A DNA stretch of 52,039 bases from Candidatus Gastranaerophilales bacterium (GTDB lineage Bacteria > Cyanobacteriota > Vampirovibrionia > Gastranaerophilales > Gastranaerophilaceae). Both the position numbers and the translations under genes were made by a program. The first letter of the stretch is position 1. The number at the start of each line of letters is the position of its first letter. Of this stretch, positions 43,292 to 50,338 are shown piece by piece. The stretch lies in NCBI GenBank assembly GCA_017415185.1, contig JAFQHZ010000011.1, positions 1-52,039 on the forward strand. The letters run 5' to 3'. The notes under the pieces are model-generated. The model was not told where the DNA came from, made no database searches, and saw nothing but the letters and a program-made list of their open reading frames with translations.

Positions 43292-43741
43292 ATGTATATT
43301 TTTTGGGCAATATTGGGTATAGTTTTTTTGTGCTTGGATTTTTTAAAAACAAGTATTTTAAAACTTACTTTGGCTTCAACTTTTTTGTTTTGTTCAATAA
43401 TTGCATACAAATTTCCTGAAAATAATATTTATCAATTTTATTCTCTTTTGAGTTTTGGAATGCTTTTTTATACGTTAATTAAAATGACTTATAAAAAAGA
43501 AAAACAAGACAAAATCAAAGAAAAGAAAATGGACGATTTTATCGGAAAAACGGCAACTGTAAAAAAAGATATTGGAAAAACATTATCAATCGATGGGCTT
43601 GGTTTTGTTGAGTATAATAATTCTCTTTGGAGCGCTAAAAGCGTTGATGACAAAGAAATTAAAGCAGGAACTTGCGTTCAAATTGTTTCTAAAGAAAACA
43701 AAATTTTAAATGTTAAGGTGGCTTCAAATGCAAAAAAATAA
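43292..43741 (+). CDS. NfeD-like membrane protein (C-terminal OB fold)
   Basis: The 149-residue protein has two or three hydrophobic segments in its first 70 residues. A cytoplasmic OB-fold domain follows (FIGKTATVKKDI, GLGFVEYNNSLWSAKS, IKAGTCVQIVSKENK), as in the short NfeD proteins that partner with stomatin-like proteins. No stomatin or flotillin gene is near. A TTG at 43268 overlaps the promoter and is rejected; the ATG at 43292 has AGGT and GAGG ahead. It overlaps the response regulator by 14 bases, so its role may be in the same envelope-stress circuit (inference). Confidence 0.78.
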   Translation: MYIFWAILGIVFLCLDFLKTSILKLTLASTFLFCSIIAYKFPENNIYQFYSLLSFGMLFYTLIKMTYKKEKQDKIKEKKMDDFIGKTATVKKDIGKTLSIDGLGFVEYNNSLWSAKSVDDKEIKAGTCVQIVSKENKILNVKVASNAKK

Positions 43742-44444
43742 TAAAAGATTATTAATTGTTGATGATGATATACAAATTCGAGAATTATTGGTGTTTGATA
43801 TTGCTCAAAGTGGTTATATTGTAGATTGTGCAATAGATGGGCAAGAAGGTTTAAAAAAAGCTCTTGAAAACAATTATGATTTAATTTTGCTTGATGTTAT
43901 GATGCCAAAAATGAATGGATATGACGTTTGTAAAAATATCAGAATAGCAAAACCAAATATTCCAATTTTAATGCTAACTGCTAAAGGAACAATTGAAGAT
44001 AAAACCCAAGGCTTTGATTGCGGCGCAGACGATTATTTGATTAAACCTTTTGAAATTCAAGAGGTCTTATTAAGAATAAGAGCCCTTTTAAGACGTGGCG
44101 AATCAAGTCAAAAACAAGATTCAAAAGAAGTTTTAAGAGCTGGTGATATTGAAATATTGCCCGATAGTCTTGAAGCAGTTATTTTAGACAAAAAAGTTAA
44201 ACTAACACCAACAGAGTTTGAAATTTTATATTGTATGATGCAACATATTAATTCTCCTGTTACTCTTGCAACTTTATTGGATGAAGTTTGGGGATATGGA
44301 AGCGATGAAGATGTTAGAATGGTGCGAGTTCATGTGGGTGGTTTAAGACAAAAAATCGAAACAAACACAAGAGAGCCTCGCTATCTTCATACTGTTGTTA
44401 ATGTTGGATATAAACTAACTCCCTTTGGGCTTTTGGAAGAATAA
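43728..44444 (+). CDS. OmpR/PhoB-family response regulator
   Basis: The 238-residue regulator has an intact receiver: VDDD near the N terminus, phospho-acceptor Asp56 in LLDVMMPKMNGYD, LTAKG, and Lys106 in YLIKPFE. The C-terminal winged helix includes LTPTEFEILYCMMQ and VRVHVGGLRQKIE, then PRYLHTVVNVGYKL. The ATG at 43728 follows AAGGTGG; an in-frame upstream TTG is less likely. Its stop overlaps the ATG of the sensor kinase by one base. The two form a complete two-component pair. Target promoters are unknown; none of the visible promoters shows obvious direct repeats. Confidence 0.93.
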   Translation: MQKNNKRLLIVDDDIQIRELLVFDIAQSGYIVDCAIDGQEGLKKALENNYDLILLDVMMPKMNGYDVCKNIRIAKPNIPILMLTAKGTIEDKTQGFDCGADDYLIKPFEIQEVLLRIRALLRRGESSQKQDSKEVLRAGDIEILPDSLEAVILDKKVKLTPTEFEILYCMMQHINSPVTLATLLDEVWGYGSDEDVRMVRVHVGGLRQKIETNTREPRYLHTVVNVGYKLTPFGLLEE

Positions 44445-46081
44445 TGAGAAGACTAAAAATTGTTGAACAAATTATAATAGTCCTTGTCTTTGCGGTTTTA
44501 ATACCGTTTATTACAATGGGTTTAATTATAAACAATGTTTCTCAACAAAGCATTAGAACAGAACTTGCAAATAATGCTAGCCTAATGGCAAGATTTATTG
44601 GAAACGCTATTGAAAGCTATGTTAATTTTAGTCAATCGCAGTTAAATCAGATGGCTTCAGGGTTTAATTATATTCCAAACACCATGGCAAAAGTTCAATA
44701 TTTTGACGAAATTGAAGCAAAAACAAGGCTCTTTAAAAATCTTGATGTAATTGAAAAAACAAAACTCCAAAAGCAAGATTTTAATGTTGAAAACAATTAT
44801 CTTTCACTTTTTTCTCCAATTGATAAAGATGGAAAATATTATTTAACTGGTCAAATAGAAATTAATATTATAGACAAATTATTTTCTGATGAATTAAAAA
44901 GACATGTTTATATTTTTGAATCAAACACAAATAAATTGCTTGCTTCAAATGTTTCTTTTGAATATGCGCAAGCTATTTTAAACGAATTAAATATTAAGCA
45001 AGACGCAAAAGAACAACTTTTTGGAAAGAGAAAAAATACCCCAAAAGCATATTATAAATTAGAAAATCCTGATTGGTTTGTTGTTGTCGATACAACAAAG
45101 AAAATAACTGCAAAAACAATCACAAAAGCTCGTTTTAGAATTCTTTTGTCTTTGTCTTTGTCTATGCTGTTTATTTTTGTAATGGTTGGTCTATATACAA
45201 TTTATTTATACATAAATGTTAGACAATTATTCAAAGGAATTACGGCAATTTCCAAGGGGAATTACGATAAGAAAATTCATTTGTTGAAAACTGTTTTCAC
45301 TCCGCATGAGCTTGTTTTTTTGGCAAAAGAATTTAACTATATGGCAAACAAAATCAATATTTCTTATCAGGAATTGCGAAAATACAATACTGAACTTGAG
45401 CAATTAAACGAATTTCGAGAAAATTTAATTAATGCAACAAGTCACGAATTTCGAACACCTCTAACAAGCATAATTGGCTATACTTCAAGGCTTTTAAGAA
45501 GAGATGTTGTTGTTGATGATGAAATGAAGATTAAATCTCTTCAAATAATTAAACAACAAGCGCAAAGATTATCAAAAATGGTTGAAGATTTATTGGTTAT
45601 TCCTGAGCTTGAAAGTTTTAGCTTGAAATTTAATATTGAAGAATTAGATTTAATTGAATCAATTAATCAAGTTGTTGAATATTTGAAAAATGAATCTGTT
45701 GAATTTGAAGTTAATATTTCAAAAGATTTAAATTATGTTTATGCTGATAACTATCGACTTGAGCAAATATTAGTCAACCTTATTGATAATGCAATAAAAT
45801 ACAATATAGATAATCAACCAATTAAAATTGAAGCATATAACAAAAACAATATGCCAATTGTTAAAATTTCAAATAAATGTGAAAAAATTTCTGACGAAAT
45901 GAAGGAAAAATTATTTGATAAATTCACAAGAGTTGATTCCGCTCTAACAAGAACAACAAGAGGCACTGGATTGGGGTTATATATTGTAAAAGGTCTTGCG
46001 AATGCAATGAAAATCAAACTTTCTTTGGAAGTTGATGACAATTTCACAATGATTTTGGAATTTTGCGATTATGTTAAATAA
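44444..46081 (+). CDS. Sensor histidine kinase of the two-component pair
   Basis: The 545-residue kinase has two membrane segments (about 8-29 and 232-256) enclosing a periplasmic sensor region of about 200 residues, probably dCache-like. A HAMP-type linker precedes the phosphoacceptor box ATSHEFRTPLTSIIGY, with His334. The HATPase domain has the N box LVNLIDNAIKYN, and TRGTGLGLYIVKG. The G1 box is not canonical (KISNKCEKISDEM instead of D-x-G-x-G), unlike the orphan kinase at 37810. The ligand is unknown. It overlaps tadA by 11 bases. Confidence 0.9.
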   Translation: MRRLKIVEQIIIVLVFAVLIPFITMGLIINNVSQQSIRTELANNASLMARFIGNAIESYVNFSQSQLNQMASGFNYIPNTMAKVQYFDEIEAKTRLFKNLDVIEKTKLQKQDFNVENNYLSLFSPIDKDGKYYLTGQIEINIIDKLFSDELKRHVYIFESNTNKLLASNVSFEYAQAILNELNIKQDAKEQLFGKRKNTPKAYYKLENPDWFVVVDTTKKITAKTITKARFRILLSLSLSMLFIFVMVGLYTIYLYINVRQLFKGITAISKGNYDKKIHLLKTVFTPHELVFLAKEFNYMANKINISYQELRKYNTELEQLNEFRENLINATSHEFRTPLTSIIGYTSRLLRRDVVVDDEMKIKSLQIIKQQAQRLSKMVEDLLVIPELESFSLKFNIEELDLIESINQVVEYLKNESVEFEVNISKDLNYVYADNYRLEQILVNLIDNAIKYNIDNQPIKIEAYNKNNMPIVKISNKCEKISDEMKEKLFDKFTRVDSALTRTTRGTGLGLYIVKGLANAMKIKLSLEVDDNFTMILEFCDYVK

Positions 46082-46520
46082 ATTTATGCAAATTGCACTG
46101 CAAGAAGCAAAAAAAGTTCAAAAAGATATTCCAATTGCTGCGCTTATTGTGAAAAATGGAGAAATTATTGCAAGCGCAACAAACAAAAGAGAAGAAAATA
46201 ATCAAACAATCGCTCATGCGGAAGTTTTAGCAATAAACGAAGCAAACAAAAAAACAAATTCCTGGCGGTTGGAAGATTGCGATATATATGTTACTTTAGA
46301 GCCTTGTCCAATGTGTGCTTGGGCGATAATTAATGCAAGAATTAAAAATGTTTATTTTGCTTCTTGGGATTTAAAATATGGTGCTTTTGGTGGTTCGATT
46401 AATTTAGCAAAACTTGCAAATTCTAAAATTAATATTAAAGGTGGAATCCTTGAACAAGAAGCCGATTGTTTGATAAAAAAATATTTTGAAAGTTTAAGAA
46501 ATGAAAAAGAAGTTAAATGA
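46071..46520 (+). CDS. tadA: tRNA-specific adenosine deaminase TadA
   Basis: TadA converts A34 of tRNA-Arg(ACG) to inosine so that one tRNA reads several codons. The 149-residue product has the zinc deaminase motif H49-A50-E51 (TIAHAEVLAIN) and PCPMCAW with Cys79 and Cys82. The WDLKYGAFGGS segment is typical of TadA rather than guanine deaminase. Length is normal. Position inside a signalling operon is unusual, but overlaps on both sides show that it belongs to the same transcript. Confidence 0.92.
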   Translation: MLNKFMQIALQEAKKVQKDIPIAALIVKNGEIIASATNKREENNQTIAHAEVLAINEANKKTNSWRLEDCDIYVTLEPCPMCAWAIINARIKNVYFASWDLKYGAFGGSINLAKLANSKINIKGGILEQEADCLIKKYFESLRNEKEVK

Positions 46521-47232
46521 ACTTGTTTTAAAATATGAAACTTCTGATTTTATTAAATCAGACCCGATACAATTTCCTCACAAATACGAAAATAAAACCG
46601 ATATTGAAATTGCCGCCTTCATTAGCGCATTGTTTGCTTTTGGAAAAAGAGAACAGTTTATTAAAAAACTAGATTTTATTTTTTCTTTAACAAAAACTCC
46701 TTTTGAATTAATTTATGACTTCAAAAAATATGATTTTGATAATTTTATTTATCGTTTTATAAAAAGCGTTGATTTAATTGAGCTTTTGAGGCTTTTAAAT
46801 AAGCTATATGTTATTGATAAAATGTCTCTTGAAGAGTTGTTTAATTCAAAGAATCGTTTTTTGAATGTTTCAAATTATTTTTATTCAAATTCTAAATGCC
46901 CAAATAATATGGGTTTCTGTTTTATGTTTGCAAAGCCTGAAAACAATTCTGCACTTAAGAGGATGAATATGTTTTTAAGATGGATGATAAGAGACGGCGC
47001 TGTTGATTTTGGAATTTGGAAAACAATTAAAAAATCGGAATTATTAATTCCTTTAGATACTCATGTTGCAAGGCTTTCTCGAGAATTTGGTTTATTGAAG
47101 CGCACTCAAAATGATTTTAGAGCAGTGCTTGAATTAACTGAAAAATTAAAAGAATTTGATAATGACGACCCAATTAAATATGATTTTGCTTTATTTGGTC
47201 TTGGAGTTGAACAAGCAAATAAAAAATCTTAA
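46501..47232 (+). CDS. TIGR02757/DUF2400-family protein
   Basis: The 243-residue protein belongs to a conserved bacterial family of unknown function, found in many Bacteroidetes and other diderms. Typical segments are DIEIAAFISALFAFGKREQFI, NNSALKRMNMFLRWMIRDGAVDFGIWK, IPLDTHVARLSREFGLLKR and DPIKYDFALFGLGV. The helical pattern suggests a HhH-GPD-like DNA glycosylase fold, but this is not certain. It overlaps tadA by 20 bases and closes the operon. The protein ends shortly after FGLGV with a lysine-rich tail, without the C-terminal cysteine motif I would expect for a full-length member. Confidence 0.8.
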   Translation: MKKKLNELVLKYETSDFIKSDPIQFPHKYENKTDIEIAAFISALFAFGKREQFIKKLDFIFSLTKTPFELIYDFKKYDFDNFIYRFIKSVDLIELLRLLNKLYVIDKMSLEELFNSKNRFLNVSNYFYSNSKCPNNMGFCFMFAKPENNSALKRMNMFLRWMIRDGAVDFGIWKTIKKSELLIPLDTHVARLSREFGLLKRTQNDFRAVLELTEKLKEFDNDDPIKYDFALFGLGVEQANKKS

Positions 47233-47302: not shown

Positions 47303-50300
47303 ATGAAAATCACACCAGTTAATAATAATCAAAATTTTGGAAAAGTAATTATTAAGAAAAAACCACAAACAAAACCAAAAGAGCGTCCATCTTATGACAA
47401 AATGACGACTCAACAGGCGCTTCAGCATATTTCAAATTTTAAAGATAAAAATGTTGATAGGGTGGGTCTTGATGATAGATTTATGTTTTTTAGCGCTAAA
47501 ACGCATTTTTCTAAAGAAACTGAAAAATTGTATAATTCAGCAATTGAATTAGCAAAAATTTCCCGTTCTCAAAATTTGGAAAGTTGGCATTTGCACCTTG
47601 CTTCTTTGATTAAATTAAACGATTATTTATCGCAAGTTTTAAGCGGAGAAGTTGATCCAATTGAAGAAACAATTTATGCAACTGCGGTGACTTTTCCTAA
47701 TGTTCTTTTTAACGGGTGCGATTTATGGACAAAACCTGAATTAATCAAGGGTGCTGCTGAAATTGTTTCAAAACAAATTGATTATATGATGAATGCTTAT
47801 GTTAAGCCAAGTCAAAAAAACAATCCAAAACAAAGATTAACAACCCCTACTCCTTCTGCTGCTATGATGCAAGACGTTGTTAAAACGCATAAAGATTTAG
47901 GCGTTCAATTGAGAACAAAAGATTTTCCTGAAAATTATTTGTTTGCATTGCCAACTTTTTCTCAAGATAAAAAATTAAAAAATGATTATATGGATTTCAT
48001 TAGAAGCCTTCAAAGCCTTGGTATGACATCTAAACCAGACACTAAAGACAAACATCATATTGAATTTTATGACAAAAAAGCAGACGCAATTTGGAAAAAT
48101 ATTGCCCATGGAAATAATGTTTTGGTGTTAAGCAATCCTGATAATCAGGCTTCTGTTAAATATTTAGAAAAAAGTTTTGTTAATTTGATTAATAAACCAG
48201 GACAAAAATATGGTTCAATTGATCCTGAAAAAACAAATATTATTTTATTGAACGAAAATGCTCAGTTTGGTTTTGTTGAAGATATGGTTAGAAATATTCA
48301 AATGGATAAATCTAAAAAAGGCACAACAACTGTTATTATGGGCAATTTCTTTAGCTTGTTGAAAAATTGCAATGCAATTTTAGACCAAACTCAAATTGAA
48401 TCAATGTTCGGAACACAGGGCGATGACAAAGACAAAGCAAACATAAGATTTGTTTTTTCAATTTCTCCTGAAACATATCACAGCAACACTCAAGCAGGCG
48501 TTCCTTTGGCAGGATTATTGTCAAGCTATGCACAACAAACCCTTCCAATGTTAAATGCAGTAGATGCTAAAGAATATCTTGCAAACGAAAGTGGGCTTGA
48601 ATTTATAAAAACAAAAATTAAAAAAGATATTTCAAAAGAAACCGTTTATAAAGCAATTGAAGTAACAAGTTCTAAAAGCGGAAATTATCCTGAAAAAGCA
48701 ATTGAGCTTTTAGACGCTGTTGCTAAATTTTTCGTTGATAGCGAAGAAATTACGCCTTCACAAATTGATACTTATTTAAAAGAAACAGAAAGCTTATCCG
48801 ATGTTTCAGATACTGAAGAAAGAAGTATAATTTTTGATACAGGAAAAACCCTGTCTGATATTAAAGGTATGCCAATGACAAGCGCTGAAGCAAACAGCAT
48901 TGTAAGACAAATTAAAAACGGCACAGTTGGAACAAGAGGCTTTATCATTCAGCACAATCATGGAAGCTCCTATGGTGGCGGACGCAGACATACAGCGGAA
49001 GCAATAGCAGGGGAAACACAAATTCCTATGGTGGTAATTAATGCTAAAGATTTTGCCTTAAAAGACATCGATGCTTTATCTCAAGAGGCAGGTTTGTCTG
49101 AATTAAAAATTAAAAAATTAATTCAAACTGCAAAAGCCCAAGCAGAGGCAAATGGCTTAAATACTGCAATGATTTTCATTGAAAATTTTGATAATTTTGG
49201 CTCAAATCCGCTTTGGGGAATTTCTTCGATTTATGAACAAAAAGCATTCAGCCAACTTTTGGCCGAAATGGACGCTGCAAGAAAAGATGGAAAAATCAAT
49301 CTTGTTGTGATGGGTTCGACTAATATGCCGCAATATCTTGATGAAAATATTCAAAAGCCATATAAATTTTTGAATCAAGTTGTTGTTTATCAGCCGCAAA
49401 ATGCTGATCAAAGAAGAGAAATTTTAGATTATTATATTGAAAAAAATAATTACAAAATTGCCGATGAATTCGAAGGACAAAAAGAGCAAATTTTGACAAA
49501 TATTTCGGAAAGTACGCAATATTTCACTGTTGTTGATTTGATGTATTTATTGGATAACGCAAATATTATTTCAAAAGAAAGACAAAAAGAAGCGATTGAT
49601 GGTTCAGATTTTACTGAATCTTTCCTTCAAATTTCATCAGGAAGAACCAATACAGCGGAAATTACTGATGATAGTAAAAAAATCGTAACTTCTCATGAAG
49701 CAGGACACGCTTTAACTCTTCATTTGATGTATGAAATTGCGCAAAAACAAAATATCTCTTGGCATTTGCCTCAAAAAGTTGATTTCATAACATTAGACCC
49801 AAGAGGAAGTTATGGTGGAGCAATGTTTTTCAAACAATCAGAAAATGACAAATATTCTTTTGAAAGAGTTATGAGCGAAATTATTTCTGATTATGGCGGA
49901 CATAGCGCAGAAAACATTATTTATGGAATGCGTGGCTCATGGGGCATTTCAGAAGATATGAGAATGGCTGCTTGGTCTGCTCAAACTGCTGTTACTGTTA
50001 TGGGAATGGGTAATAAAACCGGCGTTAGACACACTTTTGATGATGAATATATTACAGAAAAACAAAAAGAAAATATAGCCGATGACGTTGAAAAACTATT
50101 AAAAACTGGCAAAAAGATTTCTGATTCAATTATTGAAGGATATAAAGACTTCATTCTTGAATTTACTCAAAAGCATTATTCAAAAGTTGCAACAGGCGAG
50201 TGTATAATTCCTGCTTCTCAATTTGTTCAAGAACTTAACGACTGGAGAAGTAAACAGACTCCAGAAAAGCTTGAAGAATTAAACTCTTTAGAAATGCAAA

Positions 50301-50338
50301 TCTTAAATGATTTGAATGAATGCAAGCAAGGAAAATAA
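47303..50338 (+). CDS. Clp/FtsH-like chimeric AAA protein with degenerate ATPase sites and intact M41 protease motif
   Basis: This 1011-residue protein is read as four parts. Residues about 65-110 resemble a Clp N-terminal repeat (AIELAKISRSQNLESWHLHLA). About 255-480 look like a ClpA/B D1 remnant: NIAHGNNVLVLSNPD, then VFSISPETYHSN and GNYPEKAIELLDAVAKF, but no Walker A. About 540-760 follow FtsH's AAA domain. Walker A reads GSSYGGGRRHTAEAIAGE, Walker B IFIENFD, then QLLAEMD, and GSTNMPQYLDENIQKPYKFLNQ lacks the arginine fingers. Residues 790-1000 are an M41-type peptidase: His798-Glu799-His802 in SHEAGH and Asp885 in GISEDM as third zinc ligand. No membrane segment is visible, unlike FtsH. 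The N terminus is MKITPVNNNQNFG. GAGGG precedes the ATG. Confidence 0.75.
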   Translation: MKITPVNNNQNFGKVIIKKKPQTKPKERPSYDKMTTQQALQHISNFKDKNVDRVGLDDRFMFFSAKTHFSKETEKLYNSAIELAKISRSQNLESWHLHLASLIKLNDYLSQVLSGEVDPIEETIYATAVTFPNVLFNGCDLWTKPELIKGAAEIVSKQIDYMMNAYVKPSQKNNPKQRLTTPTPSAAMMQDVVKTHKDLGVQLRTKDFPENYLFALPTFSQDKKLKNDYMDFIRSLQSLGMTSKPDTKDKHHIEFYDKKADAIWKNIAHGNNVLVLSNPDNQASVKYLEKSFVNLINKPGQKYGSIDPEKTNIILLNENAQFGFVEDMVRNIQMDKSKKGTTTVIMGNFFSLLKNCNAILDQTQIESMFGTQGDDKDKANIRFVFSISPETYHSNTQAGVPLAGLLSSYAQQTLPMLNAVDAKEYLANESGLEFIKTKIKKDISKETVYKAIEVTSSKSGNYPEKAIELLDAVAKFFVDSEEITPSQIDTYLKETESLSDVSDTEERSIIFDTGKTLSDIKGMPMTSAEANSIVRQIKNGTVGTRGFIIQHNHGSSYGGGRRHTAEAIAGETQIPMVVINAKDFALKDIDALSQEAGLSELKIKKLIQTAKAQAEANGLNTAMIFIENFDNFGSNPLWGISSIYEQKAFSQLLAEMDAARKDGKINLVVMGSTNMPQYLDENIQKPYKFLNQVVVYQPQNADQRREILDYYIEKNNYKIADEFEGQKEQILTNISESTQYFTVVDLMYLLDNANIISKERQKEAIDGSDFTESFLQISSGRTNTAEITDDSKKIVTSHEAGHALTLHLMYEIAQKQNISWHLPQKVDFITLDPRGSYGGAMFFKQSENDKYSFERVMSEIISDYGGHSAENIIYGMRGSWGISEDMRMAAWSAQTAVTVMGMGNKTGVRHTFDDEYITEKQKENIADDVEKLLKTGKKISDSIIEGYKDFILEFTQKHYSKVATGECIIPASQFVQELNDWRSKQTPEKLEELNSLEMQILNDLNECKQGK

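Follow-up and report, generated by a model that had tools for sequence, protein, structure and literature searches.

A soluble M41 metalloprotease of Gastranaerophilales with degenerate Clp- and FtsH-type AAA domains that may cut proteins without ATP

M41 proteases are known as ATP-driven machines, mostly membrane-bound, and the proteolysis carried out by canonical FtsH is ATP-dependent. The window studied here, a stretch of 52,039 nucleotides from a member of the Gastranaerophilales, one group of gut bacteria, contains a gene (47303-50338, forward strand) whose product combines a preserved M41 zinc site with degenerate ATPase motifs, and the question raised by this locus is what such an enzyme could do. 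The combination of an intact zinc site with dead motors suggests an FtsH-like machine that would cut proteins without fuel. The ORF list and translation give an open reading frame of 1,011 amino acids plus stop, and bear out the coordinates and every residue named in an initial annotation of the sequence; with the alignment of orthologues, they define a protein consisting of a Clp N-like domain, a dead D1, a dead FtsH-type D2 and an intact M41 peptidase.

The M41 metallopeptidase domain occupies residues 785-1000 (49655-50302), as indicated by Pfam (Peptidase_M41, residues 787-941, 5e-14) and by structural matching, and contains the full zinc site that had been claimed for it: the motif HEAGH (residues 798-802; 49694-49708) is followed by Asp885 (49955-49957), the third zinc ligand. 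M41, and not a Lon Ser-Lys protease domain, is the protease domain that Pfam reports in the 1,011-residue protein. The preceding AAA domain (D2, residues 512-784; 48836-49654) is of the FtsH type and is detected by Pfam (AAA, residues 559-689, 6e-12), while in the predicted structure residues 513-979, comprising D2 and M41, match apo-FtsH 3kds with a Z score of 31.7 and an rmsd of 2.9 Å over 415 residues at 25% identity. Solved FtsH chains can be aligned over residues ~516/558 to ~937, and the FtsH landmarks IFIENFD (624-630) and QLLAEMD (651-657) can be traced as previously described. The same alignment displays the substitutions that the initial annotation had reported in the Walker A lysine, the Walker B acids and the arginine fingers: GTGKT of FtsH corresponds to GGGRR at 558-562, such that the Walker A equivalent is GGGR (558-561; 48974-48985) where FtsH has GTGK; the DE acid pair is replaced by EN (627-628) within the Walker B equivalent IFIEN (624-628; 49172-49186); and RPGRFDR, which contains the arginine fingers, has become KPYKFLN in the equivalent of the second region of homology (669-691; 49307-49375). 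D2 is an FtsH AAA fold from which the catalytic residues are absent.

In possessing a D2 AAA fold joined to an M41 domain with HExxH and Asp, the protein resembles FtsH and the m-AAA and i-AAA proteases (TIGR01241, MEROPS M41), but it differs in lacking a membrane anchor, ATPase motifs, arginine fingers and a pore loop, and in carrying an additional Clp N domain and D1 in front. No hydrophobic segment is present, the best Kyte-Doolittle 19-mer scoring 1.02 compared with 2.8-3.1 in the FtsH proteins of the same genomes, and the protein is thus predicted to be soluble, without an N-terminal transmembrane anchor. The NCBIfam FtsH model TIGR01241 matches residues 558-933 with 130.7 bits, below its curated cut-off of 600. 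As it has neither a functional AAA domain nor a membrane anchor, and scores under the family cut-off, we do not classify the protein as FtsH.

In the N-terminal half, Pfam reports a weak match to AAA_lid_9, the lid of Clp-type D1 domains, at residues 443-508; across 37 family members AAA_lid_9 was found in 10 and Clp_N, weakly, in three. The AlphaFold model is confident beyond the first ~54 residues (mean pLDDT 84.5 for the full length and 84.1 for residues 1-515), although a full-length pTM of 0.51 leaves the packing of the domains uncertain. A disordered tail (residues 1-55; 47303-47467), with pLDDT <50 for residues 1-53/54 and in many relatives ending in the motif [V/I][N/S]F-x-G, precedes a helical Clp N-like domain (residues ~56-240; 47468-48022), recognized by structure, Clp_N and profile matches, and a ClpA/B/C-type D1 AAA domain with its lid (residues ~241-500; 48023-48802), which lacks Walker A and Walker B and is supported by structure, hhalign and AAA_lid_9. 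In the predicted structure, residues 238-497 match the D1 of Hsp104 (Z 17.6, rmsd 3.5 Å, 238 residues) and D1 matches Bacillus subtilis ClpC (Z 16.9, ~237 residues). The matches to ClpC and ClpA extend from residue 64/68 to 499, with the N domain included, and cover residues 1-487 of ClpC; over residues 68-499 the structural check that had been proposed returned ClpC, ClpB and Hsp104. Sequence profiles agree independently with these structural matches in pointing to Clp N and D1, as a profile of the N-terminal half reaches a ClpC-like protein of 888 residues (hhalign E 4e-7) and Clp_N-repeat proteins (E 6e-5) of the same order. The reading of residues ~60-500 as Clp N plus D1 without Walker A, put forward at the outset, is therefore supported by both structure and sequence. 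Two loci (L135, 85-1416, forward strand; L136, 1642-2988, reverse strand) encode proteins of ~445 residues that consist of five to six Clp_N repeats only, without an AAA domain.

The N domain, D1 and lid follow one another as in ClpA, ClpB, ClpC and Hsp104. In contrast with these proteins, however, D1 of the family is devoid of a P-loop: hhalign pairs GEPGVGKT of the ClpC-like protein with a stretch in which this loop is missing, and a pattern search for GxxxxGK[S/T] in the D1 region gave no match in any family member. Furthermore, the second AAA domain is FtsH-type rather than Clp D2, AAA and M41 taking the place of AAA_2 and ClpB_D2-small, which are absent from the Pfam matches of the protein, and the family carries its own protease whereas Clp proteins dock ClpP. 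The 1,011-residue protein is not classified as Clp.

Among 109 aligned sequences, 94 are of the dead type, 93 of these extending into the M41 domain; these counts refer to sequences rather than independent events, and most of the genomes come from draft or metagenome assemblies. Gly558, Gly560 and Arg561 occur in 94/94, giving G[G/A/S]GR, preceded by an insertion of two to four residues, where FtsH has GxGK[T/S]. At the position of the Walker B catalytic glutamate (628) 88 of the 94 sequences have Asn and six have Lys or His, glutamate being found in none, while the first Walker B acid position (627) is Glu in 64, the others having Asn, Asp, Lys, Ser or Gln there. None of the 94 retains the FtsH arginine fingers or the FVG/YVG pore loop; a longer stretch of unrelated sequence stands where that loop would be. 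The peptidase presents the opposite picture, with His798, Glu799, Gly801, His802 and Asp885 (HExGH + Asp) invariant in 93/93 sequences, the last also in active-type relatives; Glu870 and the DPR strand (Asp832, Pro833, Arg834) are conserved too, and 35 of the 215 columns of the M41 domain are at least 95% conserved. Conservation of the altered motifs within the Gastranaerophilales, which the initial annotation had proposed to check, is thus evident, and the recurrence of the same substitutions in 94 sequences of an orthologous family places the match far above chance.

In 16 close pairs the dN/dS of the degenerate D2 was 0.00-0.09, mostly at or below that of M41, and the domain is under strong purifying selection. 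It could be argued, on the basis of this constraint and of the invariant G-x-G-R, that D2 still hydrolyses ATP, with Arg561 acting as the Walker A lysine and Glu627/Asn628 as the Walker B pair. It should be emphasized, however, that the Walker A lysine, the Walker B glutamate, both arginine fingers and the pore loop are jointly gone, leaving no known route to ATP-driven unfolding, and that D1 is without any Walker A; we regard hydrolysis through such unusual residues as quite improbable. The invariant Gly-x-Gly-Arg and the strong constraint on D2 nevertheless suggest that the old nucleotide site has a retained role, which is perhaps structural or the binding of a ligand.

The patchy presence of the gene, which has orthologues (30-53% identity) in 16/27 additional genomes from its genus and, beyond that, in further families of the order, might be taken to indicate a decaying FtsH paralogue heading for loss. 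A profile built from only the N-terminal half (A2), to which FtsH gives no match, recovered many additional relatives within the order, of ~980-1060 residues. At E ≤ 1e-12 the matches listed included 96/382 class genomes and 44/292 phylum genomes, and among them there was no member from outside the order; the class, phylum and order samples overlap one another, and presence in about one-quarter to one-third of the searched genomes is a sampling figure. As some three-quarters of the searched class genomes are without the gene, it is not an essential housekeeping function. However, frames of ~980-1060 codons are open in nearly all members, the new motif is invariant and the dN/dS of D2 is <0.1, such that the decaying paralogue is contradicted by 94 conserved sequences and by selection, and its probability is negligible. 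One member (L050, 3812-6181, forward strand) is split into ORFs of 790 and 211 residues, through either an assembly error or a real frameshift. A phage origin was also considered and rejected, as 0/38 pattern matches in viral contigs encode a relative.

In a FastTree phylogeny of D2 and M41 from 105 sequences, 93 dead members form a single clade (support 0.93), which lies within a set of rarer relatives with an intact D2 and an already dead D1. The sister of this clade, L024/L026/L028, retains GSGK[T/S] in D2 but has lost the Walker B glutamate and the arginine fingers, while the active-type relatives L023, L025, L027, L130 and L137 lie outside it. Relatives with a normal D2, which had been named as potential evidence for decay, are therefore a few deep branches external to a conserved clade. 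Four of them (L023, L025, L027 and L130) share with the family a dead D1, an FtsH-type D2, M41 and the lack of a membrane span, but differ in that Walker A, Walker B, the arginine fingers and the pore loop of D2 are intact and in the absence of the ~180-residue Clp N-like region. As D1 of the active-type and intermediate relatives has no Walker A although that of D2 is retained (pattern search), D1 probably died first, the loss of its P-loop preceding that of the D2 ATPase; this order is one that we infer, since support for the arrangement of the deep branches is weak, with values of 0.36-0.88 at several nodes.

A different source of ATP-driven movement would be an active AAA partner, either the FtsH of the cell or an active paralogue, that translocates substrates in a mixed complex to which the family subunit contributes peptidase sites or specificity. 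Hexamers of mixed FtsH subunits are well documented (PMC9020784), and three genomes, G046 (L024, L130), G055 (L026, L137) and G054 (L028, L132), each encode one copy of the active type together with a half-degenerate one, a pair that could form such a complex, but this pairing is seen only in one side lineage. In the genome of the window itself (1.87 Mb, 43 contigs) a direct search revealed a single other homologue, an ordinary membrane FtsH on contig C34, and a soluble protein with an extra D1 layer would not fit well into a ring of membrane FtsH. Nor is there a conserved operon partner: none was found family-wide among 20 loci, neighbours being common only within lineages. The genes upstream in the window (43710-47232), judged by eye to encode a response regulator, a histidine kinase, a deaminase-like protein and one unassigned product, occur in this order only at L032 and L038 among these loci, and thus the family gene has no fixed genomic neighbourhood. 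We therefore consider a mixed complex unlikely and, of the two modes of action initially proposed, favour work without ATP over work with an active AAA partner, given that the sole other homologue found in the genome is a membrane FtsH and that no neighbour is shared across the family.

With both motor rings dead, it could also be proposed that the protein is a non-proteolytic binding protein or scaffold, in which the M41 site serves only for zinc or peptide binding or for self-processing. Precedent is provided by the plant FtsHi proteins, FtsH-family pseudo-enzymes that have lost the zinc motif, retain an intact AAA domain and have been kept by selection in other functions (PMC8197885). FtsHi are, however, the mirror image of the present family, being membrane proteins with a dead protease and an intact ATPase. 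A scaffold, moreover, has no need to retain the catalytic glutamate, whereas HExGH + Asp is complete in 93/93 sequences, with Glu870, Asp832, Pro833 and Arg834 conserved as well; a purely non-proteolytic role appears distinctly unlikely.

The closest model for how the family may work is LonC. MtaLonC, a Lon-like protease whose AAA motifs are degenerate, forms a hexamer that binds six nucleotides; it lacks ATPase activity and breaks down unfolded proteins in the absence of ATP (PMC3391209). It is likewise an AAA protease in which motor motifs are degenerate and the protease site is retained, although LonC is a serine-lysine protease of another fold, with a single AAA layer and an unrelated origin. 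By analogy, we think it rather likely that the family comprises ATP-independent, soluble AAA-type M41 metalloproteases in which the AAA rings act as scaffold and gate and access is LonC-like. An FtsH AAA and M41 module would have been joined to a Clp N and D1 module, with the P-loop of D1 lost first and the ATPase of D2 afterwards. Both AAA rings of the presumed hexamer would then probably provide a passive, ring-shaped scaffold and control entry, perhaps also binding nucleotide or a regulator, while the M41 ring would still hydrolyse peptide bonds, access being limited to unfolded or adaptor-delivered substrates. Against this interpretation, the ATP dependence of FtsH proteolysis means that loss of ATP use might also abolish M41 activity, and so strongly constrained a D2 could be a sign of retained nucleotide function. 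A broader and more tentative proposal, which we regard as possible but doubtful, is a class of fuel-free AAA proteases in which retired Clp and FtsH rings constitute a selected gate or ligand-sensing collar, with the conserved Gly-x-Gly-Arg site, over an active M41 chamber, perhaps acting on F-x-G-tailed clients.

In agreement with the initial annotation, which knew of no such layout, no description of the Clp-N/D1 plus FtsH-D2/M41 arrangement, or of a Clp-FtsH fusion, was found in the open-access literature, and searches there for an ATP-independent M41 enzyme or for a pseudo-ATPase AAA protease likewise gave no account of it. To our knowledge, the FtsH-family pseudo-enzymes described lost the protease and not the motor. 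The reverse loss, in a natural and widely kept family that would correspond, among M41 enzymes, to LonC, makes the contribution of the AAA ring beyond ATP use (assembly, gating and substrate choice) directly testable, and the surviving active-type and half-degenerate relatives offer a stepwise series in which the motor may be seen dismantled while the enzyme remains useful.

A disordered tail of the form M[K/R][I/V]N-x-I followed by [V/I][N/S]F-x-G is also found on unrelated proteins encoded by these genomes, among them kinase-like and glucanotransferase-like proteins as judged by eye. It is present in the window at 47303-47467 and at L036 (907-1651), L037 (1381-2098), L149 (5827-6651) and L152 (572-1552), all on the reverse strand, at L155 (7074-8063, forward strand), and at L145, L138 and L141. 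The F-x-G tail is a possible sorting or recognition tag. In the genome of the window the motif was found in 3/174 sampled ORFs, compared with 1/747 internal methionine controls.
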